DNA of 64,000 bases from Sipunculus nudus (Eukaryota > Annelida > Sipuncula > Golfingiida > Sipunculidae), in assembly GCA_026874595.1 (NCBI GenBank), contig CM049320.1, positions 8,063,464 through 8,127,463 on the forward strand, in the 5' to 3' direction. Shown piece by piece: positions 21,591 through 60,297 of the stretch (positions are counted from its first letter, which is position 1; the number at the start of each line of letters is the position of its first letter). Position numbers and translations under genes: made by a program. Below the pieces are notes generated by a model. The model made no database searches and was not told the DNA's origin. It saw only the letters and a list, made by a program, of their open reading frames with translations.

Positions 21591-22180
21591 GTTTACATTG
21601 TTAATCAATGAAATGAATAAGTGTGAATATATTTTGTTAATAACCGTTCTGTATTATTGTATCCCCAGACAAAGTTGGGGGGATACTATGTTTTCATACT
21701 ATGTTTGACCTTGAATAGGTCCAATTTTGGGGAAAATCACACAAATTCTTAAATATCTCAATAAATCTTGCATGGATTGATCCCAAAATCAAGTTGATGG
21801 AAGATCATGGATAGGATTGTCATGTTCCAGAAACTGGTGGCGCCACCTATTATTCTTTACTTGTTTTTGTGCTGTTTATCACCCCCAAAATTGCTACTTG
21901 ACAGTACTGTGAGCATTATAAGTCAAAAACTAATGGACAGATTTCTCTTATATTATGCATATACATAGATATGGGTTATGGGATGATGTATATATAAATT
22001 GGGGTCATGACCTTTCCTATTAGAGTGGCCTTGACCTTGAATATTGCCATATATGGTGAAAATTACACAAAATCATTAATATCTCAATAAGGGATGCATG
22101 GATTGATCCCAGAATCAAGTTGATGGAAGATCATGGATAGGGTTGTCATGTTCCGGAAACAGGTGGTGCCACCTGTTATT

Positions 22181-23910
22181 GTATCCGCCAAAACAGAGTT
22201 TTGCGGATACTATGTTTTCAGCTGCACGCAGCCGCCACCGCCGCAGCCGCGTAGGTGTGCGGAGAACTCCTCCGTAACCGCTGGGCAGAATTTTACGAAA
22301 CCCAGGATTATGTGAACTGCTGCGCCCCGATTTTGTTTCGACCTCTGACCTTTCCTCTGTGCTCTGCGTCCGTTTGTGCGTCTGTTTCCACACATAAACC
22401 CACATATCTCGGGAACCGTTTGACCGATCAGGAAAATTTTTTTTTCACAAATGAAGCCCTTGGAGAGCTTTATAACATACACAAGAAATGGTGGCGCCAC
22501 CTGCAACCATGTTTGCACAGTGTCCATCTGTTCGTCTGCCTTGGGTTAAAATCACTCATATCTCTGCAGTGACTTGACTAATTCACCTGAAATTTGGCAT
22601 GCGTAAATATCCTGGATAGCTTTTCTGACCTAATGACAGGTGGCGCCACCTACATTCACGTTTACGCTGCAGACATCCAAGCTCATATCTCGGGAACCAT
22701 TTGACCGATCAGGAAAATTCTTTTGCACAAATGTAGCCCTTGGAGAGCTTTATAACATACACAAAAAATGGTGGCGCCACCTGCAACCATGTTTGCACAG
22801 TGTCCATCTGTTCATCTGCCTTGGGTTAAAATCACTCATATCTCTGCAGTGACTTGATTAATTCACCTGAAATTTGGCATGCGTATACATCCTGGATAGC
22901 TTCTCTGATTTTGTGACAGGTGGCGCCACCTACATTCATGTTTACGCTGCAGACATCCAAGCTCATATCTCGGGAACCGTTTGACCGATCAGGAAAATTT
23001 TTTTGCACAAATGTAGCCCTTGGAGAGCTTTATAACATAGACAAAAAATGGTGGCACCACCTGCAACCATGTTTGCACAGTGTCCATCTGTTCGTCTGCC
23101 TTGGGTTAAAAATCACTCATATCTCTGCAGTGACTTGACTAATTCACCTGAAATTTGGCATGCGTATACATCCTGGATAGCTTTTCTGATTTTATGACAG
23201 GTGGCGCCACCTACATTCACGTTTACGCTGCAGACATCCAAGCTCATATCTCGGGAACCGTTTGACCGATTGGGCCAAAATTTTGCTTGTGTATAGATCT
23301 CACATAGCTCTTCATCATACGCAAAACTGGTGGCGCCACCAGCAGCCATTTTTGCACAGCTCCTGTCTGTTTGTCTGCCATGGGATAAAATCACTCATAT
23401 CTCGGCAGTGGTTTGACATATCTGCCTAAAATTTTGCAGGTTTATACATCCCCGACAGCTCTCTTGATTTTATGACAGGTGGCGCCACCTGCAATCATGT
23501 TTATGCAGCAGACATCCAAGCTCATATCTTGGGAACCGTTTGACCGATTGGGCCAAAGTTTTGCATGTGTATAGTTCTCACATAGCTCTTTATTATACGC
23601 AAAACTGGTGGCGTCACCTGCAACCATTTTTGCTCAGCGTCCATCTGTTTGTCTGCCGTGGGCTTAAGTCACTCATATACATGTAGTGGTTTGACTTATC
23701 TGCCTTAAATTTTGCATATGTATACAACTTGGACGGCTTTCTGGATTTTGTTGTAGGGGGGGCAACCTACATACACAATTTGGCTGCAGACATCCATGCT
23801 AATATGCAACACTCTATTTCCCCTTGCCACTCAATCCATGCCTCACTTCACCCGTTCCACTCTGATTTAGGCGGATACACGTAGTTGCTTGTCGACTACC
23901 CGTATTCTAG
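22181..23910 (+). mobile_element. Nested rolling-circle element, GTATCCGCC family
   Basis: The 5' hairpin has arms GTATCCG / CGGATAC with inner stem CAAAAC / GTTTTG. The 3' end has the subterminal inverted copy GGCGGATAC, the hairpin GTAGT...ACTAC and terminal CTAG followed by T. The host sequence ACCTGTTATT | CTTTTACTTG is found uninterrupted at about 24232-24250. That shows the insertion point, and TT is present on both sides. The core is a tandem repeat of about 281 bp. Confidence 0.82.
22398..23790 (+). repeat. Core tandem repeat, five units of about 281 bp
   Basis: Each unit contains CTCATATCTCGGGAACCG, TTTGACCGAT and the palindrome GGTGGCGCCACC twice. Open frames here are by-products of the repeat. 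Confidence 0.85.
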
Positions 23911-24324
23911 TTCTTTTACTTATTTTTGAGCCCTTTAATACCCCCATGATTTCCACTTAACAGTACTGTGAGCATAATAAGTCAAAAACTAATGGACAGA
24001 TTTCTTTCATATTATGCATATACATAGACATGGGTTATGGGATGATATATATATAAACTTGGGTCATGACCTTTCCTATTAGTGGCTTGGCCTTGAATAC
24101 TGCCATATATGGTGAAAATTACACAAAATCATTAATATCTCAATAAGGGATGCATGGATTGGTCCAAAAATCAACTTGATTGAAGATCTTGAATATTATT
24201 GTCATGTACCAGAAACAGGTGGCGCCACCTGTTATTCTTTTACTTGTTTTTGTGCCGTTTAATACCCCATCATTGAGATGACCTTTTCTATGAGTGTGGT
24301 CTGATATTAATTGTTGCTGATGAT

Positions 24325-24361
24325 GGGGGGGGGGGGGCTATTCGTAAAGGAGGGGGGGGGG
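24325..24361. repeat. Two poly-G runs
   Basis: G13 and G10 separated by CTATTCGTAAAGGA, close to the 3' end of the GTATCCCC element. Confidence 0.8.
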
Positions 24362-24765
24362 GATTAATTGTCTGGGGATACTATGGCACCTGCGGTGCCA
24401 AGAAATATCTATTTTTGTTATAATATCAAATAATGTCAAATAAATACACACACACATACCAGTATATATATGTTTATAATCATACATATCACAGTGTCTT
24501 ACATATAATATATATGTAATAGAAAGTAAATATTCAATACTGACGACTTTGTGTTTATTCCTTTATTTACTTAATTATTACATGTGCTCACTCTTACTTA
24601 GCAATAAATCACATAACATATATTGAAAGTTAAAGCAGTGGGAAAAAATCAACACTAATGGCTTTGTGCTTATTCTTAAATTGAACTAAATTATTAAACA
24701 TCATAGATGATAGATCTACCTGGGCAATAAGTAACTTAAAGTTTAAGAGTACAGCATGATTTTTT

Positions 24766-26404
24766 TCCCTTCCAAATTGTCAAGATGGGTTCCTTCATGA
24801 CTTAAGTTTGGCAAAGAAGCGAAATGCGAGAGTGCAAGAGCCATTAAAAGGATGACAGTGACTGAGGCATTTTACCAGATATTTCAACAATAATAATAGT
24901 AGAAAAACATCGCAAGTCGATTTTCATTAAAGGATAAAGTTCTACCGGTATGAAATTCAGGAAACTCGGGATGTAGAGGGACCCTTGCTCATGTGGCGCC
25001 GCCCTGTCAATGACAGTTTTCGCGCATGACTCTCATTGATCAGTTATGTGATCACAGTCGTTTCCAGCTCTAGTTCCCATCTTCCTATGGGCTCTCCCTA
25101 CAACCTAAAGGATCTTGGAAACAAAGTACAGGTGACACTTATATCTTACATAAAACAATTCTGTTCCGGTCTTATTGAGTACATTTCTTTAACACTTTAC
25201 AACTAAAGGAGCATAGACTCTTTGCTGTGATTACAATTGTAATGATCTGATAACTGAGATCGATCTTAGAAACTTTGTTTAGTCGGTCTGACTATCATTC
25301 TCAAAAGTTCACTGCCATGGAACCAGTAAATTGTCCAATGACTATCAGAAATATAATATGCTTAATCCACGATTTAGGCCAGAAACAGGGCGAATATAAT
25401 ATATGTTGGTTTTTACACCAAAATTGTGGCTCTAAATGGGGTCGAGGATTTTCTATAGTAGCAGATTATCTTTGGTAAAAAATTATGTGGTTTAATTCTG
25501 GGTTGTCTGCTGTTGTGACTAAGTTTTCTTCTCTGAAAAGGACTGGGAGGCACTGATCCCTCTGCATTTTCGCTAATCTGACTTTGTCAGCCAAGTAGTT
25601 CCTAACATTCCTTTTCCAATGGTGCGTACATGTAACATGTTCCAGGATGTGCTGCAAATAATTTTAAGTACCGGGTGGCAGTCCATGCAAATGACTGGGA
25701 TTTTGTTCCATGGGAAATTGAAACTTTCATTTCTGCTAGACCACTGTTTCCATGTAACATGGGTCCAGTCATGCAGACATGCACACACACATTAGCATAT
25801 ATGGTGTTCCTCCAGTAGATAGATCTGGGTATCATGGCCAGGTTTTAGTATGTGATGACAGTGACAAATAAGTCTCACAGAGTTGTTTGTTTTTTTCCGC
25901 ACCCTTCTAGATTTTTGGCTCCAAGGATGTGAGCAACAGAAGCTGCGTGAATCCCAAATTTTTGTCTTTTATAAATCATATTATGTTTGGTGTTTTACCG
26001 CATGTGCTGATCTGTTGTATTCATGAATGGATTTAGTTGATGGCGCATGGACATCATGAATGGCATCAATTGTTCTGCAAAATTGCCCCCATGGTGTAGA
26101 GCTTGTTTGCCCTCTCCGTTTCTTGGTACTTTACATTTGCAACCTGTGTCAGAGTTTTTCCTGCACTAGTCAAAGTTTTCATTGAAAAGAAGTTCATTGT
26201 AGACCTGTTTTGCAGCTTTTCCTTTAATTTATTCTTTGATTTTCTCTATGACATTACTTAAAATATATATATATATATATTTATAGTCAATGAACATGAA
26301 AAGAAGACAATCATATTTTTTAGATATACAGAATGTTGCTAAATTTTCAGCTACCCCTGTAGCCTTCGTCAGAGCGAGTGATTATCCGTAAACAAGCTGA
26401 CAGT
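24766..26404. other. No confidently recognised gene
   Basis: A minus-strand stretch at 25466-25835 gives overlapping open frames (for example VRNYLADKVRLAKMQRDQC) whose pieces could belong to the downstream part of the YqaJ-type gene, but I do not recognise them. A (TA)n tract lies at about 26263-26280. Confidence 0.4.
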
Positions 26405-27170
26405 GTTCTATTCTTTCAGTATGCATATGCTTTCTATCCATACCACAAAAATGCACAATTCTGTGTTGCAATCAAGTAACTGTGTCTGTACCTGATAGTA
26501 ATACGAATGCCCACTTTTGACACGCATTTTGCCATCCTTGACCCACAAACATGATTTACTATCACAAGAGTCTACCAGTTATTTTTTTCTCTTATGCTCT
26601 ATGGACAACTCCAGAGCCACAACAATTGCAAGAAATTTTGGAATCTGGAGTGGCAGATTCTGGAGTGGCAGAATGGTTGGATTAATAACAAGACCACTCT
26701 TGACACAAACCAAGTTCTTATGGTCACTGTTCATGATCTGGATGTAACACTCCAGAGCTTTTCTCTTCAATGTTCACAAGCCCATCTTGTGGCAGGAGTC
26801 TGGAATGTAATGCACTCTGGGTAGCTAACAGCTTTCAGAGTGGATCACAGGCACTTGTTTCCAGCACTACAATGGCCTAGAAACCGTAAACACATTGAGT
26901 ATGGGTGATATACCCGTTATTAAAGAACAACTTTTATAACGGGTATATCACCCATACTCAATGTGTTTACGGTTTCTAGGCCATTGTAGTGCTGGAAACA
27001 AGTGCCTGTGGAGTGGATAGTGCTTCTGGGCATGTTGCACAAACAGACTTCATGCGTGATGCTGTTATACAGCCTGCTCTGAAACGAAACCATTCCCGGC
27101 TCTTTTCCTGTACCCTTGTTTCCATTGCGACTGCCTTTGCTTGCTCTTTTGTTTTTTGTCAAGTGTCAGA
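26405..27170 (-). pseudogene. YqaJ-type nuclease domain, second copy, split by a foldback
   Basis: YqaJ domains are lambda-exonuclease-like nucleases that are common in transposon-linked proteins of invertebrates. Reading down the minus strand: EKSREWFRFRAGCITASRM (N-terminal RAGRITAS block), then the foldback, then AVSYPECITFQTPATRW and KSGLVINP. Next come the frameshifted TPDSKISCNCCGSGVV block and GHSYYYQVQTQLL. The catalytic E-x-K segment after SGVV is destroyed by a stop. Removing 26846-27010 and one 8 bp repeat rejoins the frame. Confidence 0.75.
26846..27010. mobile_element. 165 bp foldback element with perfect 75 bp arms
   Basis: Arms 26846-26920 and 26936-27010 are exact reverse complements; the loop is 15 nt. 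The flanking octamer GAGTGGAT occurs at 26838-26845 and again at 27011-27018 in direct orientation, a perfect 8 bp target duplication. The ends read CACAGGCAC. An 8 bp duplication suggests mobilisation by a hAT-type or Merlin-type transposase; which one is unknown. No arm-to-arm mismatch is visible, so it is young or maintained by conversion. Confidence 0.88.
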
Positions 27171-27510
27171 GACCCATTGTCACATATTGGTTGAAGCAAT
27201 TTGGTAAGAGTGACCTCCTTGTCTTGTGCAGTGTATTGACACTTAACCTTGATAAAAAAATTGTACCATTAATTATCCCATTTGGTGAACTAGCAAGAAT
27301 TGGATGCTGGAAAAATATCCCACACCTGTTCACAACACTGTTTGTTTGTTTCTCATACAGTTGCAGTGACTCACCTTCATATGTGTGCCTGTGCTTTCAA
27401 GCTGGCAATTTTAAATTAGTTGGAACAGTGCAACTCTTTGCTAGAGCATCCATATCAGTTTTGCCTGTTGCCTTGCAAATTCTCCCAAAATTTGAAGAGT
27501 GAAGCCTGTT
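27160..27510 (-). pseudogene. YqaJ-type nuclease domain, first copy
   Basis: Minus strand reads SSNFGRICKATGKTDMDAL, then after an in-frame TGA YEKQTNSVVNRCGIFF and HPILASSPNGIINGT. A frameshift leads to IKVKCQYTAQDKEVT, the position of the catalytic V-E-x-K motif, here with Lys in place of Glu. It runs directly into the N-terminus of the second YqaJ copy, which belongs to a different subfamily. Confidence 0.72.
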
Positions 27511-27857
27511 AAGTCTTTCTTGCCTCCACAAATTGTTACTACTTTGGCCCCTAGGTGCAATTTCTAGCTCTTCACAATTTGTTTTGCTTATAGCTGTGAA
27601 TTGAGATGTTTCAGCAGTCTGTCAGGGCCACTTTCCACCATGGTCATGGTACAAGGCAAAGGGATTTACTGGGTTTACTGTTTGCAATAATGACATTTTC
27701 AATTCTTTTGCAGCAAAGCTTACAGCCAAACTTTTTATATAGTCAGATGTAACCTGGGTTGTTCATATATACCTGTTTTCTTGCATTAAATGTATCGGCA
27801 CTTCTATAAGTTACACTTTGATCTGAAGCCCCCTCCCCCCTTTCTGAATGAGATGTT
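27511..27857. other. No recognised gene
   Basis: Spacer between the YqaJ remnants and the satellite; nothing recognisable. Confidence 0.5.
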
Positions 27858-27874
27858 TTGAATGCTTCTTTTTA

Positions 27875-28414
27875 CACCTCATCTGTGAGAGGCCACGTTT
27901 GTCAAATTGCATCTTTTCACATCTCATATATACAGGCCAGGTCTGTCAAGTTGCTTCTTTTTACAATTAAATCTGTTACAGGCCAGGTCTGTCAAATTGT
28001 ATCTCACCACATTTCATCTGTTACAGGCCAGGTCTGTCAAATTGTATCTCACCACATTTCATCTGTTACAGGCCAGGTCTGTCAAATTGCATCTCTTCAC
28101 ATCTCGTCTATTACAGGCCAGGTCTGTCAATTTGTGTCTTTTTACATCGCATCTGTTACAGGCCAGGTTTGTCAAGTTGCATCTTTTCACATCTCATATA
28201 TACAGGCCAGGTCTGTCAAGCCGCTTATTTTTACAATTAAATCTGTTACAGGCCAGGTCTTGTCAAATTGCATCTTTTCACATCTTATCTATTACAGGCT
28301 AGGTCTGTCAAATTGTATCTTTCCATATCTTATCTATATCAGGTCAGGGTCTGTTAAGTTGCTTTTACTTCACCTCTCAGTTGTGACAGGCCAGGTCTGT
28401 CAAGTTGCATTTTT
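27875..28414. repeat. 46 bp satellite, first block
   Basis: About 12 copies of a 45-47 bp unit built on CAGGCCAGGTCTGTCAA followed by a T/C-rich half. All three plus frames stay open because of the repeat composition; I do not regard them as coding. Confidence 0.85.
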
Positions 28415-31076
28415 AGCTCAGCTGACTATAAGTCATCTGAGCTATAGCCCTGGTCCATTGTCTGTCGTCTGTCTGTCTGTCTGTTTGTCCGTCCGTCCGT
28501 CTGTCCGGATGTCCTTCCGTAAGACTGGCACGTTTCGACACCATTGGACCTACAAATCTGAAATTCACCATACAGTTAGATGTCCTCAAAATCTCCTACC
28601 ATGCCAAAATTAGGTCAATAGGACTTCGTTCCTTTGAGATATTAAGGAAAAACCTCAATTTTTTATTAGAAATCTATTTTCACACTTTAGGACTGCCTTA
28701 TATCAAAACCACTCATCTGGTTTTCTTCATATTTACCATAAATATTCCTCTATATAGTTCCTATGTACATGCCAGAAATTAAGTCAGTATTATTTAATTT
28801 AAAAAAATTATGGGCCCAAACATAATGGACTTTGTAAAAAAATCAGGAAAGATATTTGGTCACTTAAGACCAAAAGTGTTAAAGGTAGGGACTTTTTTTC
28901 AGTAATACAACTTTAATTAATCAAAATTTAATTGTATACCAAAAATTAGATCAAAATCTGTTAAAATTTTTTAAATATTGGCAAAAATATAAAATTGGTA
29001 CCTTAAATTTTGCCCAAGTTTGACCATGGCACATTTTTTTTCCTGTAAGTACTGTGGATTTAATTTTCACAGCATGTTTTTGTTAGCATTTTGTCTGTTA
29101 ACACCAAAAATTTGAAACCAGTTGATCAAAAACTGTAGATTTTATTTAAGTTTTCAAGCACCATGTCACATCAAGTTTACTTTAAGCTAGTGTTATGCAG
29201 TTTGCTAGAGCTCAGCTCCCCAGCTTCAGCTCTAAGTTCCTTAAATTTAGCATACAGTTAGATGTCTCCAAAATCCCCTACCATGCCAAGAATTTGATCA
29301 CTAGGACTTAATTCCTTCGAAATATTAATGAAAAACTTCATTTTCCCATTAAAAACCCATTGTTCCACTGTAAGACTGCCTAATATCAAAACCACTGATC
29401 TGACTTTGATCATATATAATATACATATTTTTCTATACATTCGCCATGCACATGCAAGAAATGATGTCAGTATTGCGTAATTGTTTTAAGTTATGGGCCC
29501 AAACATTATGCATTTTTTTTTTAAAATAATAAAGAAATATATTTACTCCCTTAACAATAGGATTGCTGAAGCTAGAGATTTTTTGTCAGGGATGTAACAT
29601 TATTTAATCAAGATTCAATTGAATACCAAAAATTAGTTCTGAATTTTTCAAATTTTATAAGTTATTAGTATAAATATAAAATTAGTACCTTAAATTTTGC
29701 CCAACTTTGACCAAGGCACGTTTGTTTCCTGAGAGCACTGTTGATATAATTTTCATATTATGCACACAAGGATTTCATCTTTGTAGTTTAGAAAGCTGAA
29801 AGAAATTGGCCAAATATTGTAGCTTTTATTAATGTTTTTATGAGACCATGTCAGACCCAGGCTTTATCCAGCCCCTCTTCAGTCACCTGTATGTTGACCT
29901 TTCTCAGATTATGCATGCTTGAGCGAAGCATACACTTGGGCAGCCAGGCAGCTAATGCCCAGCCACAGTTGATCCAGGTGTCCAACCCAACTCATCTAGT
30001 AGTTGTTTTTAAAAACAACATAACAATAAACAATAAATTAATAATTTTGTATTGGTTTTGTTATAACAAATTAAAGAAAAATTTATAGAAAAGGAATTTG
30101 TTAGTTGATGAGTAACAGAAAATTAACTTGCAGTTACTGATGATGTAAGAATCTTGTATGGATGGATAGAATGTCAATGTCAATGTTATTCCAACTAACA
30201 CCATGCAGTCACCTATGGTATTTTCAGTGAAATTTTAATGATAAAAAAATAAATCATATTATTCATTACTAATCATTAGGGATCATATGAAGGAAATTAA
30301 TGATAGACAAAGATGCAGTTGATAATATTTATCTAGATTCCTACTGTGTCTGGTGTGTAGATTGATGTGAAAGTAGTTCAAAGTGAATATATTACATTTA
30401 TTTTTTTTAACATAAGTAAAAGCCATAAAACCAGGTACTTATGATCATTATTTAAATTTGTGAATTTTGTATATTCTGGATTCTCACCATCATTGTTTTG
30501 CTAAAACTGAATAAATACTAGACATGGTGCGAATGCTTTGAAATGTATTTGAATACGAATATGAATATGTACTGCATGAAAAAATTTTATTGCATAAGAA
30601 AGGGAATTCAGGTAAAAATGAAAGTATTTGAATACCAGTGCAGATACTTTCAAAATGTATTCATGAATGCATTCATGAATATATTCTGTAATATTAATTC
30701 AATGATCATTTAAGTTAAATTTTATTTAAAAAAATCATATGATTTTCTTCTTTTTTTTTAATAAAAAATTATATTGGCACAATATTTGTTATTAAATTTT
30801 AATAAATAGTTACTCTTTTATTATATGTATTGCTTATAAGTTATATGGCCAAGTCAAAATCTGTGTGACAATAGCACTCCATTTGTTAATAAAATAAATG
30901 AAATCAATCCTCTCCCCTGTCTCCACAGGTACTATCAATATCATACATAAGCTAAACACCAACAACTCATTATAAAGCTTATATTTATTACCACACAAAA
31001 CAAGCATGTGCCTCTTTCCCAAATCATATTTTTTATCATATATAACAGCTGAGCCCCGTGACCCATGGGTCCCTTG
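28415..31076 (+). mobile_element. Rolling-circle (HINE-like) element, AGCT family, inside the satellite
   Basis: The 5' hairpin has outer arms AGCTCAG / CTGAGCT, inner arms TGACT / AGTCA and loop ATA. The 3' end has subterminal CAGCTGAGC, palindrome GACCCATGGGTC, then CCTTG. The satellite resumes on both sides, and joining at TT restores its unit. It has a CTGTCTGTC/GTCCGTCC microsatellite at about 28457-28515 and two core units of about 690 bp (from 28540 and 29240). No protein is encoded. Confidence 0.82.
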
Positions 31077-31560
31077 TTTCACATCTCATCTGTTACAGGC
31101 CAGTCAAATTGCATTTCTTCAAGTCTCATCTTTTACAAGTCAGGGTCTGTCAAGTTTCATCTTTTCACATTTCATCTGTTACAGCCCAGGTCTGTCAATT
31201 TGCATCCATTCACATCTCACCTATTTCAGACCAGGTCTGTCAAGTTGCTTCTTTTTACAATTCATCTTTTACAGGCCAGGTCTGTCAAATTGCATCTATT
31301 CACATCTCGCCCATTACAGACCAGGTCTGTCAAGTTGCTTCTTTTTACAACTCATCTGTTACAGGCCAGGTCCGTCAAGTTGCATCTTTTCACATCTCAT
31401 CTGTTACAGGCCAGTCAAATTGCATCTCTTCAAGTCTCATCTTTTACAAGTCAGGGTCTGTCAAGTTGCATCTTTTCACATCTCACCTATTACAGGCCAG
31501 GTCTGTCAATTTACATCTCATGTTTCAGGTCAGATATGTTAAATTGCAACCTTGTTTCAG
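31077..31560. repeat. 46 bp satellite, second block
   Basis: Continuation of the array at 27875-28414 after the inserted element; about 10 units. Confidence 0.85.
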
Positions 31561-33085: not shown

Positions 33086-33089
33086 CAGT

Positions 33090-35620: not shown

Positions 35621-35627
35621 CCTGTAA

Positions 35628-41560: not shown

Positions 41561-41561
41561 G

Positions 41562-43478
41562 TGTCAAGGCCCAGATCGCGATCTGGACGGATCTTAGATC
41601 TGTCCAGCCCAAATTGCGATCGCAGTTCAGGCCGGCCCAAACTGCGATCGTAATCCAGGATGGCCAGATCTTAGATCCGTCCAGCCTAGATTGTGATCGC
41701 AGTTTAGTCCGGCCCAGACTGCGATCCTGTCTTTCTTGCTCAGGATTGCAATCTGGTCTGGACAGATCTAAGATCAGTCCAGCAGAGATTGCGATCCTAA
41801 ACTTGACCAGCCCATATTGCGATCCATGCTTTTACAATCACAGGAGTGAAACATTGGTTGTTTTACCAACTCATTTGGTATTGCATTGTACCATTTTCCC
41901 ATAATAAATACAATTATAATACAGAAAGGCAATTTTCACTCCTTCATATCACAGGAGTGAAACATGGGATGTTTCACCAACTCATTTAGTATTGCATGGT
42001 TGTTGAAAAAAGGTTACAAGGAACCCATGGGTTTTATATGCTCACAAAATATGATTTGGAAGAGGAGGTAGGCAAGTGCAGGTTTTGTGTGGTAATATAA
42101 GCTGCAATATGAGCTGATGGTGTTTAACTCAAGTTATGTAAGATTATGATAATATCCTTGGAGACAGGGAAGAGGATTGATGTCATTTATTTTATATACA
42201 GCTGGAAATGGTGTGCTGTTTTCACATAGGTTTTGACTTGGCCATATAACTTTATCTACATTGCAGTAGAATTATTTGAAAAAAAAACCTGTCCATTATC
42301 AGTCATGGTAATTCTGATTTTTACAAATGAGAACTTTTATTTAATAATTACTGGTTATTCCTACCCAAGAATAAAACTTAAATAATATAACTATTTATTA
42401 TAAATTAATAACAAATATTGTGTCAAATATTATTTAAATTAAAAATAATAACAGCATCATATGAAGAGATCTTTTAATAATATAATCGAAATAAATGATT
42501 ATTAAAATAATATAATAGAATATATTCATGAATACATTCATGATTACATTTTGAAAGTATTTGCATTTGTATTCAAATACTTTCATTTATACCTGTATTC
42601 CTATTTTTATGCATGAAATTATGGAGTACATATATTCATATTCACATTCAAATATATTTGCAAAATATTCTTATCATGTCTGGTATTTATTCAGTTTCAG
42701 CAAAACAAAGTTCTTGAGAATCCAGAATTTACAAATTTCACAAATTGATCATAAGTATGGTCATAATGATCATAAGTACCTGGTTTTATGGCTTTAATTT
42801 ATATTTAAACATAAAACTATTATATTCACTTTGGACTACTTTCACATCAATCTAAACACTAGACATAGCAAAAGTCTTATGACAATTATCAACATTACAG
42901 AAATCATAACGAGAACTTGTCTAAGATCTGATTTTTATCATATTTAAATATTTTTATTTAAAAAAAATGTAAAAAAAATTAAAAGCAATCTCAGCTATGA
43001 AACCATTATATAAAATAAAAAAATAACTCAAGCATAAGAACACCCTATAAATTGTACAAGGAGAAAACTAGAGATGGGCAAGTTTAATTTTATTAACATA
43101 AATTGAGGAACCAGCAATACAGATTTTGATTATTTACATAGTCTTGTGACAGCTGATACAGCCACGAGTTAATATTATTGGTGAAAAATATTGACATATT
43201 TAATCAGTACTTGTCTGAGTAAAATTTTAAAATTTTGACATATTTTATTTTATTTTTTAATTTTAATATAACTATAAATTAACAAGCTGAAACACTTGGA
43301 TCGCATGGATCGCAATATGGGCTGGTCAAGTTTAGGATCGCAGTCTTGACTGGACAGATCTTAGATCTGTCCAGTCCAGATTGCGATCCTGAAGCAAGAA
43401 AGACAAGATCGCAATCTGGGCCGGACTAAACTGTGATCGCAGTATAGGCTGGACAGATCTAAGATCTGGGCCTTGACA
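41562..43478. mobile_element. 1.9 kb element with long, internally repetitive inverted ends
   Basis: Left arm 41562-41826 and right arm about 43293-43478 are inverted copies, both starting TGTCAAGGCCCAGATC. Each arm is made of 30-40 bp subrepeats with AGATCTTAGATCTGTCCAG and ATTGCGATC motifs. The subrepeat number differs (more on the left). It sits between (TA) tracts. No transposase is seen. The interior carries an inverted fragment of the AGCT-type element. Confidence 0.82.
42002..42900 (-). repeat. Inverted fragment of AGCT-type rolling-circle element
   Basis: Reverse complement matches about 30320-31078: the CACACAAAACCTGCACTTGCC stretch, a polymorphic TACTTATGATCAT region and the 3' end CCCATGGGTTCCTTGTAAC. 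Confidence 0.75.
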
Positions 43479-49400: not shown

Positions 49401-49406
49401 CAAACC

Positions 49407-49847: not shown

Positions 49848-49946
49848 CCTTGTTGTCATCAATCTGAGCTGTATCCTGAACGTATTCCTTGAAATGCTGA
49901 CGGACTAGTGCGGTCTCTCTGGATAACCAGCAGAACCTCCTTTGCA
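49848..49946 (-). pseudogene. Recombinase gene, penultimate exon
   Basis: 99 nt, reads QRRFCWLSRETALVRQHF, a W/R-rich block typical of the C-terminus of this family. Confidence 0.6.
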
Positions 49947-50396: not shown

Positions 50397-50462
50397 CTTC
50401 TGATTTTGAGGAACTCTTTATATTCGTCTGTTTTTCCTTTGGTTTCTTTTTGGCAGCTTTTT
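50397..50462 (-). pseudogene. Recombinase gene, small basic exon
   Basis: 66 nt between TTTCATTTAG and GTGAGTTT; lysine-rich KAAKKKPKEKQTNIKSS. Confidence 0.6.
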
Positions 50463-50928
50463 CTAAATGAAAAGAAATATATCAAGGAACGTGTTTGCTA
50501 TAAAGAATTAGGGCTATATTTATTTTATAAGTCCAAATGACAATTTATTAAAGTGTTCTGGTATATTCTTCTATCATTCAGCAGTTCTTATTTTCAATTC
50601 TGAAAATATCCAAAATGCTGCATCATATTTTAAATTATTGCATATTAATCTGTAGACGGCTAATCACGATAATTTGAGCAAAACTCATTTGAGAGGAAAA
50701 GCTTAACACTGTACTAACGAGTGCCAAATATCGTATATCTATCAAAACAAAGTAAAAATGTGGTACCTAAACAAGATTGAACTATTATGTACAGTACAAT
50801 ATCAACGTTTAGAATGGTAAACAGAATAGATTACAATATCAGAATAGTGTATACAACAGGCTAAAGAAAACACTAAATACTGTATTTCTTGTTGATCTGT
50901 AGGTTTGTCACTGCAATTACGTTTTTAC

Positions 50929-51177
50929 CTGTGTGGACCTTTGCTGATTGTTGTCGAACCTTCTCTATTGACTGCATCTGCGTTGGTTTTCTGAGCTGAT
51001 CATTTGCCCCAGAGCTGTCCTTCTCACCAGATGAGTCTTCATCGTTGTACTGTAAGATCAAATAGTAGTGGTCTGCTATCGCTCCTCCAAAGGGCATTTG
51101 GTCGTCAAGGCCAGCCTGTTTGCTAACATTATCAGATTCTGCATCCTGTTGACTGGTAGTGGTAGTATTTCTTGGGC
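50929..51177 (-). pseudogene. Recombinase gene, exon after the catalytic domain
   Basis: 249 nt, acceptor CTTTATTTTCAG, donor CACAG|GTAAAAAC. Encodes a Ser/Asp-rich linker (EDSSGEKDSSGANDQLRKP), probably disordered. Confidence 0.65.
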
Positions 51178-51713
51178 CTGAAAATAAAGTATTTGTTTCA
51201 GTGACAAACACATATGTTGCTGTACATTTATGATTTTAGAATAAACTACGATGAGAAAACAAATAAACTACAACAATAAAATAAATATTTATACTTTACA
51301 TGTATTGTAGCTCTATTATTTACTGTCACGTTTTGTTTTATATCGCATATTATAAATCCTCAGCTGCAGTCTTTTATAACAAGGTCACCCTATAATGGGA
51401 TTTAAATGACTCTCGTAATTAGGTGGGTGATTAAGTTGCTCCTATTGTTATGTGCTTTTGTTTTCATGTGTCAGCATTCATATATATGTATAAATTAAGT
51501 CATAAAATATTAGTTGTATAGAGTTAGAGTTTGATAATTTATCAATAATAATAATTTATCCATAATGACTGAGCATGAACAGCAAAATTAAGTCGGACAT
51601 TCCAACAGATTATGAATAGAGTCTACGATGGTTAAAAATTTAAAGGTGCATAAATATTCAAATTATGAAATGGTGATTCGGATTATTCAAAATAAATGTA
51701 CAATGATTATTAC

Positions 51714-53330
51714 CAAATGATCTGTCCATTTCTGCACAGAATGTCCCCGACACTTCCAGTTCTTTTGAAACTAAGGGGCATTGATAAACGTTCTTGTTTA
51801 TCTCTAGTGCATGGCCCATGTGTTTGTAGAATGCATCTTTGTCTTGGTCATTCGTATAACTTTCCTCGAATCTTGTAGACATCAGGTGCCACATTTTTGT
51901 AGCTGTAATCCATGATGCTGAATCGAGGCCCGCCTCTACATTCACATCATGCAAATCCTTCCATCCGTCTGCATGTTCAGGGGAGTATTCAGTACTTGGA
52001 AACAGAAAGGTATTATTTCCACTAACAGTTGCCTCCTTTCAGAAATCAGGTTCAGCAGATCGGTCTCGGAGGCTCCAAGTGTCTCTTGGGTAGAGGAATG
52101 GAACTGATCCTTTACCCTTGCCTCCAGCATACGTTACTTTTTTGTATACTCGTCAGCGATTCATCTTCCTGGGATGTCCATTCCTCATTTTTGCTTCGGT
52201 TTAGTCTTTAACAGTTAACCTGCTTGGTTCCCCACCTCTTCGGGCATTATAAGTTGTGATGCGAATGACCAAAAGTCGCCTGACCTTTTGGAAGTCCCCC
52301 TTTTCAAGTTTAGACCGGGCACTAAACTCTAGTTTTGATACAATGTAATTTCTGAGCTGTTTCATCGCACTGTCTTTTTGGAGATTCTTTGGTTTTCGCA
52401 GAGTGTTCTCTTTTCTTTCTCGCAGATGATAGCTTGCATCGCCAAATACGCTCGCTCTCCTCCAATGAAGGACTCTCTCAAATCTGTTTACCTCTTTTTC
52501 GTTTTCTGTCTGTTTCATCATGGCGTAATATCCTGACATAACGCTGATGCATGTAGTCAGTAAGTTGCCAATTATTTGCTTCTTTCCCGCTTTCATGGTC
52601 ACCGAGTCCTTGGAGCATTCTCTGTCGATGGCCTGTACCAGAATTTCAAAATTGTCTGCATTAATAATGGACACAGGGCCGATCTTGCTTAATTTGTCAC
52701 ATCCTTCTTCCTGTACAATAGATTTCATCTGTTGAAAGAGGTTCACAAGAAGCCTCATGCTCCACTTTGCCAACTTTTTTCCTTCAAATTGTTTTTGGGG
52801 TTTCCCCTTGTATTTGTCCCATATACTGTTCCCAACCAGTTTTATGAATGTGTCTTCTTTACATATGTTTCCAACGTCATCATCTCTCAAACTTCCTAAC
52901 ACATACTGTTCAAATTGGGAGTTTTTCTCCCACATTTTTCCTATAGAATATGTTGGAATTTCAAGCTTTTTGGCAAATAAATCATTTTCTTTGATTGAGG
53001 CAAATTTTCTGACATGCTTCTGAATTGTGGTTGCTGCGAAAACCCCACGGCACCCAGCACAGATTTTAGGTTTGCTTTCCAACATTTGTCTCCTTTCCCT
53101 GTGAAGATCCTTAGTTACCTCCTTCCTTTATCATATTCTGATTTGCCTTCTCAATGCCATGTTTTCGAATTTTATCGAATTCAGCACGCTGTTCCGTTTT
53201 TGACATTTTTCTGGCAGCAGCAATTTCCTCGATGTTTTTGTGTTTGAGAAGTATGTGCCTTTTTAATTAACTTTGCAATATTCCGCAGTACACGCAAGGT
53301 CTTTTGGGTTTCTCTTTCTTATTTTTCTTA
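51714..53330 (-). pseudogene. Recombinase gene, large catalytic exon
   Basis: After the acceptor TTATATTTTAG: a finger CVYCGILQ...RHILLKHK, KMSKTEQRAEFDKIRKHGI, then a second Cys pair CAGC...HVRKF. The open frame 53085-52201 ends with the catalytic arginine segment NARRGGEPSRL. Past a stop, the catalytic lysine segment GGKGKG survives (near 52150). Next come ITATKMWHLMST, where the family has MRHRVST, then FYKHMGH and INKNVYQCPL with the nucleophilic tyrosine. Several frameshifts lie between 52200 and 51950. Confidence 0.75.
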
Positions 53331-53575
53331 GGTTCTAAAATATAAAATTATTTGTCATTTAAAAAAGTGTATACAGCGAGAATCAATTATAAAATTACGT
53401 TGAAAATATTTGAAACACTGTACACATGTTATCTTACAGTTGTTATAGTGTATTATTCCAGAACATTTTAAAATTTTTAATTATTAATTTTATAATCTGT
53501 AAACATTTAAAAAATTCTAAATTTGCAACTAGGGATGGATAAAAAAAAAGTAAATCAATTCCTGATCCTAATTAC

Positions 53576-53734
53576 CTGTTCTTGTTGTAATATCTCCTGC
53601 ACTTTCAGCTCCAATACCTTCATTGGAATCATCTGTCAGTGGGGTACATTCTTTTCCAGCCTCCTGTACCAATTGTTCAGTTTCAGCCTTATCATCTGCT
53701 GAAGCCACATGCAAGTCATCATTACCGACGTTAC
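53576..53734 (-). pseudogene. Recombinase gene, duplicated acidic exon (downstream copy)
   Basis: Also 159 nt, reading GNVGNDDLHVASADDKAE... and SNEGIGAESAGDITTRTG. Paralogous to the exon at 54195-54353; open in phase. Confidence 0.75.
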
Positions 53735-54194
53735 CTAAATTAAAAAAAATGTTTTATCTGAAGTGGGGTTACGAGATCCATATTTAGATTTGTATAACAG
53801 TCCTGATTCATAGGGATGATGACCAATCATGCTATTTATTTTAGCGTTCTAATTAAAATCAAGTGAAAATAAGATGTTATCTCAATTATTTTTGTCTAGA
53901 TCTCAAGTATCTCTATTGTTTGCGGGATGATGATTGGGTGAAATTGTAAATTAACTCATCATTTTGTATTCCTTTTAATATCAGTCATCTCACAATATTA
54001 AGTGGAAAAATATTTTAGTTAAAATATGGTATACCAATTATCTAACAAAATTATTAGAATTATAGTCAAGACCAAATGTTAATTCTAGTTATTAATGTTT
54101 ATTATATATAAAGAATTTCAGAAACCCTTAATTTTGCAAATTATAGGCGGGTGGTAGTAAATCAGGGTCTTTATCATTTAGTGGTCCAAATTAC

Positions 54195-54353
54195 CTTTTC
54201 TGTTCATAACATCCCCTACAGCTTCAGCTCCAATACCTTCACTGGATTCGTCTATCGGATAGGTACTTTCTTTTCCAGCCTCTGGTACCAATTGTCCTGC
54301 TTCATCCCAATCATCTGTTAAGGCCATATGCAAGTCGTCATTACCGACGTTAT
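54195..54353 (-). pseudogene. Recombinase gene, duplicated acidic exon (upstream copy)
   Basis: 159 nt, acceptor TATTGTAG, donor AAG|GTAATT. Reads DNVGNDDLHMALTDDWDEAG..., then SSEGIGAEAVGDVMNRKG. The intron flank TCTGAAGTGGGGTTA is duplicated with it. Confidence 0.75.
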
Positions 54354-54689
54354 CTACAATAATAAATACTTCTATCTGAAGTGGGGTTATGTTTCATAGC
54401 CAATATATATATACTAAAGGTACGTTTTTGAGCTTTCAATTCGAATACAGAGAATATAAGATTTATCATATTTTCGTTGTTTTTTTTATCTTGATTTAAG
54501 TATTTTTTTCATTTCTATATTGTTGTAGGGGAGCGCCGAGTGAAAATGCAAGTCAATTCATCATATTCTATTTCCTCTCTATGAGTCATCTTGAAATGTT
54601 AAGTTGAAAAAAACATGTGTATGATATTCATAAGCTTTATCGACTCGATATAGTATTACAGTGGAGAAACATTTATAGTCCAATCACGA

Positions 54690-54721
54690 TCAGCTGAGCG
54701 CCGTGACCCATGGGTCCCTTG
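54690..54721 (+). mobile_element. Solo 3' end of an AGCT-type rolling-circle element
   Basis: CAGCTGAGCGCCGTGACCC then ATGGGTCCCTTG followed by TT, like 31045-31078. The rest of the element is absent. Confidence 0.75.
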
Positions 54722-54726
54722 TTATT

Positions 54727-56803
54727 ATGCCCCCGCCACAAAGTGGCTGGGGCATATAGTTTTACCCATATCCGTCATTCCGTCCTTCCGTCATTCCGAA
54801 ATCAAACAGTTGTACAGACTTTTTTTGCAGTGCCTGCTGATATTGGCTTGACTTTTGGTGTGTGGGCAGATATAGACCAGTTACAGATCGAGTTCGCGTT
54901 TCGTCATGGTTGACCTACTTTTGACCGTTTTACGGCTCCTGAACATAGAAAATTTCATGAAAAATATGAAATTTCATGACAAATACACATGTACGGACTT
55001 TTTTTCGCAGTGCCTGCAGATATTGGCCTGATTTTTGGTGTGTGGACAGATATAGACCAGTTACATATAGAGTTCACGTTTCATCCCGGTTGACCTACTT
55101 TTGACCGTTTTACAGCTCCTAAACTTAGAAAATTTCATGAAAAATAGAAATATTCATGACAGATACACATGTACGGATTTTTTTTCGCAATGCCTGCAGA
55201 TATTGGCTTGATTTTTGATGTGTGAGCAGATATAGACCAGTTACAGATCCAGTTCGCGTTTCGTCATGGTTGACCTACTTTTGACCGTTTTACGGCTCCT
55301 GAACATAGAAAATTTCATGAAAAATATGAAATTTCATGACAAATACACATGAACGGACTTTTTTTCGCAGTACCTGCAGATATTGGCCTGATTTTTGGTG
55401 TGTGGACAGATATAGACCAGTTACATATAGAGTTCACGTTTCATCCCGGTTGACCTACTTTTGACCGTTTTACAGCTCCTAAACTTAGAAATTTTCATGA
55501 AAAATAGAAATATTCATGACAGATACACATGTACGGACTTTTTTTCGCAATGCCTGCAGATATTGGCCTGATTTTTGGTGTGTGGCCAGATATAGACCAT
55601 TTACAGATCGAGTTCACGTTTCGTCATGGTTGACCTACTTTTGACCGTTTTACGGCCCCTAAACTTAGAAAATTTCATGAAAATTTGAAATTTCATGACA
55701 AATACACATGTACGGACTTTTTTTCGCAATGCCTGCAGCTATTGGCCTGATTTTTGGTGTGTCGGCAGATATAGACCAGTTACAGATCGAGTACACGTTT
55801 CGTCCCAGTTGACCTACTTTTGACCATTTTACGGCTCCTGAATATAGAAAATTTCATGAATTTTTTTAAATTTCATGACAAATACACATGTACGGACTTT
55901 TTTTTCGCAATGCCTGCAGATATTGGCCTGATTTTTGGTGTGTCGGCAGATATTGACCAGTTACAGATGGAGTTCGAATTTCGTCCCCAGTTGACCTACT
56001 TTTGACTGTTTTACTGCTCCTGAACATAGAAATTTCATGTAAAATATATATTTTCATGACAAATACACTTGTACAGACTTTTCTTCACAATACCTGCAGA
56101 TATTGGCCTGATTTTTGGTGTGTTGGCAGATAATGACCAGTTACAGATCAAGTTCACATTTTGTCACAGTTGAACTATTTTTGACCGTTTGACGGTGCTC
56201 TACCATAGAAAATTTCATTAAAAGGTGCACATGTATGGACTTTTTTTCGCAGTGCCTGCAGATACAGGCCTGATTTTTGGTGTGTAGGCAGATAATGACC
56301 AGTTACAGATCAAGTTCTTGTTTTGTCTCAGTTGACCTACTTTTGACCATTTGACTGCTCCTGAACATAGAAAGTTCCATGAAAAATATAAATTTTCATA
56401 ACAAATGCATATGTACTGACTTTTTTTCCCCAATGCCTGCAGATACCACCCTGATTTTTTTTGTGCGGGCAGATAATGACAGTTACAGATCGAGTTTGCG
56501 TTTCATCTCGGTTGACCAACTTTGATTGTTTTACTGCTCCTAAACATAGAAAATTTCATGAAAGACAGAAATTTTAATGGAAAATGCACATGTATGGACT
56601 TTTTTTCACAATGCCTGCATATACTGGCATGATTTTTGGTGTGTTGCTTGATAATGACCCGTTACAGATGAAGTTTGCATTTTGCCCTTGTTGACCTACT
56701 TTTGACCATACGACACCTCCAGAACTTAAAAAATTTTCCAAATTTTACAAATGTTTCTAATTTGCCCAAGGCGGGGGCATTCGTGTCGTTCCGACACATC
56801 TAG
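54727..56803 (+). mobile_element. Rolling-circle (HINE-like) element, ATGCCCC family
   Basis: The 5' hairpin has outer arms ATGCCCC / GGGGCAT, a C/T mismatch, inner arms GCCAC / GTGGC and loop AAA. The 3' end has subterminal GGCGGGGGCAT, hairpin GTGTCG-TTC-CGACAC and terminal CTAG followed by T. The core is about 11 units of roughly 180 bp with GCCTGCAGATATTGGCCTGA and GTTGACCTACTTTTGACC. GTTAT occurs at both outer flanks, possibly by chance. Confidence 0.82.
54811..56740 (+). repeat. Core tandem repeat, about 11 units of 180 bp
   Basis: Units start near 54811, 54989, 55169, 55348, 55529, 55708, 55888, 56070, 56230, 56413 and 56589. Divergence increases to the right. Confidence 0.85.
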
Positions 56804-57714
56804 TAGTTATAAAACTTTGTAAATTGTTTATAGGCTTTACAGATCTGTTCCTGTTCTTTGACATAAAATATGCGGAAATTTGAGGTAGTTGCATTCAAAT
56901 TATACATAAATATATGTTTAGCCTCTACTTCATAGGCAATATCATCTGGCCATAGGTAGAGTTCTCGCTTCACATGCTTTAGGCACTTAACATCACCTAT
57001 TTCGGCACTGTGAACGTTAATTTCACAACCAACATAGAATGTGTGCTCATAGGCTATTGCCACATATTCACTTTGTGCATTGAAGTGATATGGCTCAAAT
57101 TGAATCTCAGGAACATTATGCTTGTTTGTTTTTCCTCGAGTCACTGCTGTTTTTGTTTTAGAATGTTTAGTTTTCAGTTTTTTTCTGTTTGTAGGCAAGG
57201 AATCCTCAACTTCAACCTCTTTTTTTAGTGTCAATCAGTTTATTCATCACATCATCAAAAATGTGGACCCCAGGATGTTCCAGTGCTGATATTAAGGCAA
57301 GGCTGTTTGAAGTTGGCCAACATTCTTCTTGGTCACTGTCAGCATCTACTTCACTTCAGGAGCTACATTGATCACTTCTTTTAAATACTTAATTTTCCAG
57401 ATTAAAGCTTGTTTCTTGGCAGCCACTGTTTTCATTTTTGACAGAAGCTTCACTACATCTGTCCTGCACCTGCATGGTCCGCTTTGGTTTTTCACCATTT
57501 TCGCTATGTTCTGTTTTGCAGCCAGTTTCTTTTTCATAAGCTTTTCCTTTTTGATGCAGTTTTCCTTCATTATAGCCACAATTTTTTCTTTTACTTTTTC
57601 TTCACTGAATTTGTGTGTTTTTCAAAGGTTTATAGCTTTTTCCCTTGCAACACTCAGCAGCTTGTGTTGTACTTGATCACACTTTTTATCCAGCCACTGT
57701 GATACAGTTTTATT
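56804..57714 (-). pseudogene. C-terminal part of an invertebrate transposon-type gene
   Basis: Continues 60298-62660 beyond a rolling-circle insertion. Reads KTVSQWLDKKCDQV, a coiled-coil/basic stretch (KKLAAKQNIAKMVKNQSG) and an acidic SDSDQEECWPTSNS segment. A basic linker leads to the end domain (EYVAIAYEHTFYVGCEINV, ELYLWPDDIAYEVEAKHIF). I recognise it as part of a repeated invertebrate family but know no named function. Frameshifts lie near 57228 and 57345-57350. Confidence 0.6.
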
Positions 57715-60297
57715 AGCTCAGCTGACTGTAAGTCATCTGAGCTATAGCGATCATTCTTTGTCCGTCGTCCGTCAGGCCGTCCGGCCGTTTGTCCGTTAAC
57801 AGGGCACAAATCGTAACCACTGGACCTGGAATCTTCTTACTTTACATCCAGAGAGGTCCATGAAAAAACTCCTTGGAAACCTGGAAGTAGGTCTCTGTTA
57901 CCCATATCCTTCGAGCTATGGGGCCCCAAATTACCCCCCAGAATAGTGAAAAATTTCATAGAAAAACTTCAATATCTCATTAACTACATCACTGATAATC
58001 ATGATTTTTGGCATACATATTGATCATGAGATGTTCCATCAGTTCCTGCAGACTGGTGGCGCCACCTGTATTTTTCAATTTTTTACGAATTTTTTCTCTA
58101 TTTTTTAGACCTTTAAAAAAGGTGGACATCTGTTAACAGGGCAGTAATCGTTAAGACTCGACCTAGAATCTTCATTCTTGACATTCTTAGAGACCTATGA
58201 AAAGTCTCCATTGAAACCAGAAATAAGGTCTCTATTACCCATATCCTTCGAGCTATGGGGCCCCAAAGTACCCCCCAGAATAGTGAAAAATTTCATTCAA
58301 AAACTTCAGTATCTCATTAACTACATCACTGATGGTCATGTTTTTTGGCATACTTATTGATCATGAGATGTTTCATCAGTTTCTGCAGACTGGTGGCGCC
58401 ATCTGTATTTTTCGATTTTTTACGAAATTTTTTCTCTATTTTTGGGACCTTTAAAAATGTGGACATCTGTTAACAGGGCACAAATCGTAACCACTGGATC
58501 TGGTATCTTCATTCTTGAAATTCTGAGAGACCTATGAAAAGTCTCCATGGAAACCAGAAATTAGGTCTCTGTTACCCATATCCTTTGAGCTTTGGGGCCC
58601 CAAAGTACCCCCCAGAATAGTGAAAAATTTCATACAAAAACTTCAATATCTCATTAACTACATCACTGATGGTCATGATTTTTTGGCATACATACTAATC
58701 ATGAGATGTTCCATCAGTTTCTGCAGACTGGTGGCGCCACCTGTATTTTTTCAATTTTTTACGATTTTTTTCTCTATTTTTGAGACCTTAAAAGATGCAG
58801 TCATCTGTTAACAGGGCACAAATCGTAACAACTGGACCTAGAATCTTCTTTCTTGACATGCGGGGAGGCTCATGAAAAGTCTCCTTGGAAACCTGGAATT
58901 AGGTCTCTGTTACCCAGATTCTTCAAGCTATGGGGCTCTGAAGTACCCCCCAGAATAATGAAAATTTGATACAAAAACTCAAATATCTGAACAACTGATG
59001 CATTGACTGCCATGATTCTTTGCATGGATATTGATCATGGAGTATTTCATTGGTTTCTGCAGACTGGTGGCGCCACCTGTATTTTTTCTATATTTTACAA
59101 TTTTCTTTCTCTATTTTTGATACCTTAAAAGATCCGGTCATCTGATAACAGGGCACAAATCATAACGGCTGGACCTAGAATCTCCTTTCTTGACATGCAG
59201 AGAGGCCAAAGAAAAATCTCCTGGAAAACCTGAAATTAGGTCTCTGTCACCCATATCCTTGGAGCTATAGGGCTCCAAAGTACCCCCCCAGAATAATGCA
59301 AAATTTGATACAAAAGCTCAAGTATCTGAATAACCACTGCATTGATCACCATGATTCTTTGCATGAATATTGATCATGGGATGTTCCATCAGTTCCTGCA
59401 AACTGGTGGCGCCATCTGTATTTTTTTTCAATTTTTACCATTGTTTTCTTTATTTTTGAGACCTTCAAAGAAGTTGTCATCTGTTAACAGGGCACAAATC
59501 GTAACCACAGGACCTAGATTCTTCTAACTTGACATAAAGAAAGGTTCATGAAAAGTCTCTGTGAAAACATGAAATTAGGTCTCTGTTACCCATATCCTTC
59601 GTAGTAAGTACCCCTCAGAATAATTAAAAATTTGATACAAATTTAAACTCCAGTATCTGAATAACCAATGAATTGATCTCCATGATTCTTGGCAGGCTTA
59701 TTGATCATGGAGTGTTCCATCAGTTCCTGCAAACTGGTAGCGCCACCTGTACTTTTTTCAATTTTTTAGGCATTTTTTTCTCTATTTATGAGACCTTCAA
59801 ATGAAGTGGTCATCTGTTAACATGCCACAAATTGTAACTGCTGTACCTAGAATCTTCTTACTTGACATCCAGGGAGACTAATGAAAAATCTCCTTGGAAA
59901 CCTGAAATTAGGTTTCTGTTACCCATATTCTCCGAGCTATAGGGCTCATAAATACCCCCAAGAATAATTAAAAATTTGATACAAACAAAAGCTCTAGTAT
60001 CTGAATAACTTATGCCTTGATAGCCATGATTCTTTGGATATATATTGATCATGCAGCGTTTCATCAGTTCCTGCAGACTGGTGGCACTACCTGTATTTTT
60101 TTTTCAAATTTTTACGCATTTTTTTTTTCGTTTTATGAGACCTTCAAATGAAGTTGTCATCTGTCCAAAAGCACACTGTTACCCATTTCTAAGGACTTTT
60201 CACAAAATTCATGATTTGTTTGCACTCTGGCAGTCATTTTGCTCATTGTTCAACATTCCTTGAATTCAGCAGAGCGTCATGGCCCATGGGCCACTTG
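57715..60297 (+). mobile_element. Rolling-circle (HINE-like) element, AGCT family, inside the transposon-type gene
   Basis: 5' hairpin AGCTCAG / CTGAGCT with inner TGACT / AGTCA and loop GTA. GTCCGTC-rich segment at 57760-57797. 3' palindrome TGGCCCATGGGCCA, then CTTG. TT on both sides (57713-57714 and 60298-60299); removing the element and one TT rejoins LCMLKN to NKTVSQWL in frame. The core is about seven units of 338 bp. Confidence 0.88.
57795..60170 (+). repeat. Core tandem repeat, about 7 units of 338 bp
   Basis: Units begin with CTGTTAACAGGGCACAAATC near 57795, 58133, 58468, 58806, 59147, 59481 and 59815. Each has CTGGTGGCGCCACCTGTA near its end. Confidence 0.85.

Follow-up and report, generated by a model that had tools for sequence, protein, structure and literature searches.

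Analysis of a 64,000-nucleotide stretch of the Sipunculus nudus genome (the window; C15:8063464-8127463), together with the whole assembly (1.43 Gb, 153 contigs), indicates that the repeated elements of the window are very probably HINEs, non-autonomous elements mobilised in trans by Helentrons, which are rolling-circle transposons that bear an endonuclease, and that on contig C1 HINE families with unrelated ends share their strand regionally. The window elements display a 5' subterminal inverted repeat (subTIR) with a complementary repeat, a GTC microsatellite, central tandem repeats, a 3' subTIR, a 3' palindrome and insertion at TT, which is the anatomy published for HINEs of Crassostrea gigas and others (PMC7492417, PMC4067079). 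The microsatellite and the central tandem repeats are frequent but not obligatory in HINEs, and both are present here. Together with the Helentron open reading frames (ORFs) found in the same genome, this anatomy supports an earlier note on the window, which had derived the elements from Helitrons or Helentrons. Since HINE anatomy is known, what is added here is a sharper rule, combining a one-defect stem, a triloop and a flawless long-range partner.

The earlier note had also described AGCT and ATGCCCC as unrelated in sequence. Three groups of ends, AGCT, ATGCCCC and GTATC, are indeed unrelated; the GTATCCG and GTATCCCC elements have their first six bases and the sequence following the hairpin in common, and both belong to the GTATC group, so the groups are not four. 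Exact-pattern searches of the genome returned 14,599 3' ends and 24,895 5' ends for AGCT, 2,290 and 3,599 for ATGCCCC, and 3,141 5' ends for GTATC, with 0 or 1 matches for the reversed patterns. A census filter demanding both ends, applied to 20 evenly chosen 10-kb loci and the window, was rejected: it gave 26 matches, window elements included, versus 15 in reversed sequence, mostly tandem repeats, with too few intact elements.

Strand agreement between HINE families

Orientation statistics were collected on contig C1, and for nearest-neighbour comparisons each family was thinned to one element per 10 kb; a given element may enter several comparisons. Nearest neighbours from different families lay on the same strand in 19/20 cases below 5 kb, 48/52 below 20 kb, 80/94 below 50 kb and 100/117 below 100 kb, and pairwise agreement between families dropped to 0.43-0.63 at 0.5-1 Mb. 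Between 5.3 and ~19.8 Mb, where the GTATC list ends, the strand of ATGCCCC elements matched that of the nearest GTATC element within 100 kb in 37 of 45 cases, a level reached in 0/5000 label shuffles and 0/86 circular shifts. The listed AGCT 3' ends formed 15 strand runs versus 28 expected by chance (p 0.00005). Strand sharing among families with unrelated ends over tens to hundreds of kb indicates that the strand is dictated by some property of the region instead of by the element, and that one kind of insertion serves all of these families.

Over C1:0-24 Mb, the three families share strand in blocks that extend from tens of kb to more than 1 Mb. AGCT 3' ends in the first 5.2 Mb are 84 '-' and 16 '+', for 7,337 and 7,262 genome-wide. 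In C1:0-1.2 Mb, AGCT displays 62 '-' and 1 '+' 5' ends and 41 and 0 3' ends, accompanied by ATGCCCC (10 '-' and 0 '+' 5' ends, 5 and 0 3' ends) and GTATC (6 and 0); 5' and 3' counts represent in part the same elements. The sign flips in C1:1.2-1.5 Mb, with 8 '+' and 0 '-' AGCT 5' ends, 5 and 0 AGCT 3' ends, 6 '+' and 0 '-' GTATC copies (five of them in one local array), and ATGCCCC contributing a '+' 5' end and a '-' 3' end. In C1:3.18-4.17 Mb, '+' again prevails over '-' for ATGCCCC (5' ends 5 and 0, 3' ends 2 and 0), GTATC (5 and 0) and AGCT 3' ends (4 and 1). Outside C1, HINE sequence in the window amounts to 10,575 bp on '+' versus 772 bp on '-', and of the 20 10-kb loci sampled, seven (one on C1) hold 300 bp or more of HINE sequence, each being uniform in strand; the library used for this count was partly built from these same elements. 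No report of orientation blocks for Helitrons or Helentrons was found in a literature search that covered few subscription journals and the accessible parts of its sources.

The usable controls were T13 runs, considered below with composition, and a repeat resembling a short interspersed element (SINE), for which pairs are few. The strand of the SINE-like repeat matched that of the nearest HINE in 4/10 cases below 50 kb and 6/17 below 100 kb, and that of its own neighbouring copies in 7/11 below 50 kb, all small numbers. This repeat, which may equally be described as resembling a miniature inverted-repeat transposable element (L016:3869-4285, L026:2599-2769), starts with TGTTACGGGGTGACATAAA, ends with TTCGTAACA, has 1,417 exact 3' ends genome-wide and contains a stretch that by eye resembles a tRNA-type box. 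Two other candidate controls were rejected: CTTTGGACTACTYTCACATCAATCT proved to be reverse-complementary to a segment of the AGCT body and accordingly lies on the opposite strand (agreement in 1/20 cases within 50 kb), and the GACCGG... pattern has only 33 copies.

One-defect hairpins and their 3' partners

A scan of both strands of the window, counting Watson-Crick pairs only, for 7 bp, a 1x1 mismatch, 5 bp and a 3-nt loop detected this hairpin at 28415, 54727 and 57715 exclusively. Dinucleotide shuffles of the window lacked it in 29/30 cases, and the remaining shuffle gave a count of 2, representing one hairpin read on both strands. The identical geometry proposed in the earlier note is thus exact for AGCT and ATGCCCC, but not for GTATCCG or GTATCCCC. 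The GTATCCG hairpin at 22181, which had been called close, consists of 8 bp, a 1-nt bulge, 5 bp and a 3-nt loop, hence a single defect with a bulge instead of a mismatch; GTATCC-type copies at two other loci (L039 and L043) carry more degenerate hairpins. As for GTATCCCC, considered a looser version, its family has 12-nt arms that as a rule contain a single mismatch, placed at pair 9 in one subfamily and at pair 6 in another, and it is the window copy at 21659 that has an extra flaw compared to the family.

Family-wide forms were surveyed with genome-wide pattern searches that print unspecified inner bases, using the first 100 copies listed per family, all on C1. The patterns fix the outer 7 (AGCT), 6 (ATGCCCC) or 5 (GTATC) pairs and the overall length, and do not address outer-stem decay. 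Exactly one mismatch was observed in 91/100 AGCT copies (perfect stems, 0), 83/100 ATGCCCC copies (perfect, 2) and 81 of the 99 GTATC copies scored (perfect, 1), giving exactly one internal defect in 255/299 scored copies over the three families, with the 3-nt loop set by the pattern geometry. The usual 5' form of the AGCT, ATGCCCC and GTATC families is a one-defect stem with a 3-nt loop. In AGCT, pair 8 was mismatched in all 100 listed copies (C.T in 97, C.A in 2, C.C in 1). By contrast, a C/T mismatch is not the norm in ATGCCCC, where pair 8 is C.C in 84 of 100 listed copies versus C.T in 4; the C.T of the window copy is therefore a minority form, and its identity with the AGCT mismatch a coincidence. 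No clear case of compensatory change inside a family was found among the listed copies, whose variation is too small; structural selection is therefore unproven, and its case rests on the recurrence of the plan.

At the 3' end, the predicted succession of an inverted copy of the start, a second hairpin, CTTG, CTAG or CTAT, and a T was found in the elements starting at 28415, 54727, 22181 and 21659. The fifth, at 57715, retains the hairpin and CTTG but its inverted copy is eroded (best match with 3 mismatches in 13), so that an inverted copy followed by a palindrome is present in 4/5 window elements. The TT target sites were confirmed by two natural empty sites, one in a 45-bp minisatellite (element 28415) and one in the GTATCCCC central repeat (element 22181). 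At both sites, comparison with unfilled monomers shows that the filled site exceeds the empty one by two Ts, next to which the 28415 junction has one C/T difference relative to the empty monomers. Insertion at TT without longer target duplication is therefore observed at 2/2 empty sites, a TT duplication being indistinguishable from Ts carried by the element.

Where the subTIR is legible, in four window elements, the 3' copy can pair with the 5' arm straight across the position that is defective in the local stem, with a more favourable computed energy than the local hairpin has. Computed energies range from -8.8 to -12.5 kcal/mol for the local stems, taken in their family forms, and from -12.3 to -18.1 kcal/mol for the arm paired with its 3' copy, not counting the cost of closing the long loop or joining the ends. 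No intact 3' copy was found for the GTATCGCC subfamily (none within the locus at L013, 3 mismatches in 12 at L025), and the rule of pairing through the defect therefore rests on the four window elements. An imperfect local hairpin yielding to flawless long-range pairing would constitute a natural switch.

Candidate Helentron partners and the window inventory

The genome contains at least 143 matches to the Helitron Rep domain PF14214 (150 of 195 candidates scored), in open frames of up to 2,426 aa. Both ORFs that were scanned match Rep, PIF1 helicase and endonuclease, and one of them also OTU, identifying them as Helentrons. All three domains exceed the cut-off in the L029 ORF (2250 aa), whereas the endonuclease match of the C17 ORF (2166 aa scanned, most of the ORF) lies below the curated cut-off. 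Flanks were examined at loci on C8, C11, C4 (5' side only), C13 (two loci) and C17. The C11 locus and one of those on C13 share homology along almost the whole 6 kb of upstream sequence, within which the 5' end was not reached. An AGCT-type 3' end ~1 kb after the C17 Helentron ORF was rejected as evidence of a partner: by our estimate, chance alone would place ~0.09 such ends on that strand within the 17 kb of 3' flank examined (~9% of samples of this size), and no AGCT 5' end was detected within 5 kb upstream. At C17:35.62-35.64 Mb and C13:9.10-9.12 Mb (L037-L043), two Helentron ORFs belonging to the same family share conserved patches (~60-77% identity) dispersed over ~5 kb upstream, possibly old segmental copies or long untranslated exons, and a GTATCC-type HINE is inserted in one of the two regions. 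The proposal that one replicase recognises structure is plausible: the one-defect stem recurs in groups whose ends are unrelated, and a single regional strand rule holds for three of these groups, in keeping with shared insertion machinery. It is unproven, as no autonomous element with matching ends was found at the six loci examined, most of whose ends were not reached, and copies within a family vary too little to reveal compensatory changes.

The following comparisons rely on the accessible parts of the cited reports. Cg_HINE of C. gigas resembles the present elements in its 5' subTIR of 11-12 bp with a complementary inverted repeat, GTCY-type microsatellite, satellite-like central repeats, 3' subTIR, 3' palindrome, insertion at oligo-T or TT without target-site duplication, presence in both orientations and lack of an identified autonomous partner, attempts to link the oyster HINEs to autonomous elements having failed (PMC7492417). 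Unlike here, its subTIR and inverted repeat are spaced by 1-12 bp, and neither a one-defect triloop stem nor orientation blocks are described (PMC7492417). Helentrons, HINEs and DINE-1 elements likewise have palindromic subTIRs, a 3' stem-loop, a TT target with extra Ts and a Rep-helicase-endonuclease partner; that partner shares the HINE ends (PMC4067079), whereas none doing so was found here. In mites, ~38-60 bp separate the 3' subTIR from the 3' end (PMC4067079), compared with a 3' copy starting 31-45 nt from the end in four of our elements. Helitron2/FoHeli elements also have asymmetric terminal inverted repeats and, in some groups, hairpins at both ends; the GAA triloops of FoHeli1 and FoHeli2 recall the 3-nt loops seen here, but the terminal motifs (such as ATTTT) and the target differ (PMC5148889). 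The orientation of IS200/IS605 elements follows local replication direction (PMC5371812). With their flawed hairpin ends, these elements provide an analogue only: they are prokaryotic and move by peel-and-paste with TnpA, a likeness of mechanism and not of membership.

Table 1 HINEs and associated features in the window (window coordinates).
Feature	Position	Strand	Details
HINE, GTATCCCC family	21659..24412	+	Interrupted by nested element 22181-23910; 5' hairpin 21659-21686; 3' subTIR 24368-24381; 3' hairpin 24384-24400; end CTAT then T
HINE, GTATCCG family	22181..23910	+	Nested inside the GTATCCCC element; empty site available; 5' hairpin with 1-nt bulge 22181-22210; central 280-bp tandem repeats; subTIR GGCGGATAC at 23870, then hairpin; end CTAG then T
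45-bp minisatellite	27867..31518	no strand	Split by the 28415 element (natural empty site)
HINE, AGCT family	28415..31076	+	5' hairpin 28415-28443; GTC microsatellite; subTIR from 31046; hairpin GACCCATGGGTC; end CTTG then T
Two stretches like the body of the 28415 element	42031..42893	-	Reversed orientation; the discordant HINE-related piece of the window
Isolated AGCT-type 3' end	54691..54721	+	SubTIR, hairpin, CTTG; 5 nt upstream of the ATGCCCC element
HINE, ATGCCCC family	54727..56803	+	5' hairpin 54727-54755; 180-bp central tandem repeats; subTIR 56770-56780; hairpin GTGTCGTTCCGACAC; end CTAG then T
HINE, AGCT family	57715..60297	+	5' hairpin 57715-57743; 337-bp central tandem repeats; 3' subTIR eroded; hairpin TGGCCCATGGGCCA; end CTTG then T

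Besides these elements, the window contains a tandem array of a 411-420-bp unit (1940-7113, matches of 93-95%) and a 35-nt near-perfect palindrome (26911-26945) flanked by inverted ATGGGTGATA, which by its sequence is no HINE end. On the '-' strand, 7876-9447 carries part of a PIF1-type helicase, with Pfam PF05970 matched at 8785-9447, that is probably derived from a Helitron; the ORF at 7876-8247 gave no Pfam match.

Replication, transcription and other possible origins of the strand blocks

How would a region impose its strand on unrelated families? In the mechanism that we propose, a Rep protein would read the flawed hairpin at the 5' end, the 3' end would be defined by long-range 5'-3' pairing and the second hairpin, and a single strand would be pasted between two Ts, into whichever strand is exposed by local replication direction or, less likely, by transcription. 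Both the mobilising protein and the switch from local to long-range pairing are what we infer. Flawed hairpins are recognised in IS200/IS605. The blocks would reflect the use of a single exposed strand for insertion, in the simplest case at a replication fork, by analogy with these bacterial elements, which insert in the lagging-strand template with an orientation that recapitulates replication direction (PMC5371812). Transferred to Helentrons in its simplest form, the sense strand would enter the lagging-strand template, '-' to '+' switches would mark initiation zones and '+' to '-' switches termination zones. We tentatively consider it possible, short of probable, that in this genome elements of the Helentron type place single-stranded DNA in the lagging-strand template of replication forks, that the strands of tens of thousands of HINEs are a fossil map of replication direction, and that the one-defect 5' hairpin is a docking form, which would give way to the flawless 5'-3' pairing upon strand release. 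The left end of C1 fits the simplest prediction of telomere-ward forks.

The main rival of this replication reading is transcription: HINEs may enter the strand that transcription bubbles or R-loops displace, or one orientation may be purged from transcribed regions, such that element strand follows gene strand. Strand agreement decays over hundreds of kb, most steeply beyond ~50-200 kb, a distance equally compatible with long genes. Within the window (7876-57234), those longer ORFs that by eye resemble transposable-element proteins are on '-' and the full HINEs on '+', the PIF1 helicase piece being the only one confirmed by Pfam. However, 62 of 63 AGCT 5' ends pointing one way over 1.2 Mb would necessitate many consecutive genes on the same strand, and selection against one orientation usually yields weaker ratios. 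We regard transcription as somewhat unlikely. Segmental or tandem duplication, by which co-oriented copies descend from one duplicated block, could account for five GTATC copies 2.6-2.8 kb apart at C1:1407721-1418654 and three AGCT copies ~5 kb apart at C1:5.14-5.15 Mb, but the concordance survives thinning to one element per 10 kb, also between families, and C1:0-1.2 Mb displays no lag excess (30 observed, versus a jittered mean of 27 and maximum of 34), making this origin of the blocks improbable. The five GTATC copies (C1:1407721-1418686) are arranged head to tail on the same strand, as a rolling-circle multimer or a tandem duplication.

We deem it very improbable that local composition sets the strand, with insertion following T-rich strands and blocks reflecting strand-asymmetric composition. 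TT is indeed the insertion site, T-runs often precede the elements, and the window outside recognised HINEs, where unrecognised remnants may remain, is T-rich on the HINE strand (AT skew -0.067), such masked composition being suggestive only because unlisted HINE sequence persists in the loci, but T13 runs match the nearest HINE in 34/55 cases within 50 kb, below the 80/94 obtained among HINE families. Finally, the shared hairpin might be constrained solely by its subTIR copy, or arise by chance, with no protein reading it. The known HINE plan already includes a subTIR accompanied by a complementary repeat, so that an imperfect stem is expected, and the published spacing varies from 1 to 12 bp (PMC7492417). 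Nevertheless, exactly one defect in 255/299 copies of three families, with a one-defect stem also in the GTATCCG copy of the window, renders the absence of a reader unlikely.

Several results weigh against Helentron-driven insertion into a regionally exposed strand. The orientation statistics come from one contig, in which the ATGCCCC 3' ends, taken alone over 42 Mb, form 46 runs versus 49 by chance (p 0.30) and agree with any other family below 50 kb in 21/28 cases (p 0.03) in an earlier, pooled and weaker comparison. Same-family pairs 50-100 kb apart beyond 5.3 Mb agree in 7/20 cases for ATGCCCC and 9/19 for GTATC, which is unexplained, and T13 runs agree weakly with the nearest HINE (44/74 below 100 kb, in addition to the 34/55 below 50 kb). 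Three AGCT copies less than 3 Mb from a contig end (two on C4, one on C12) are oriented opposite to the telomere-ward fork prediction. As the hairpin defect is inherited within a family, its copies are not independent evidence of selection, and the independent cases are three or four. Lastly, no autonomous element with matching ends was found at the six Helentron loci examined, at most of which the ends were not reached.

Taken together, the regional strand agreement of families with unrelated ends provides a clue to how Helentrons choose and enter their targets. If the blocks match fork direction, HINEs would supply a cheap map of ancestral replication direction for animals that lack such data, and eukaryotic rolling-circle elements would be tied to the fork-coupled insertion known in bacteria.

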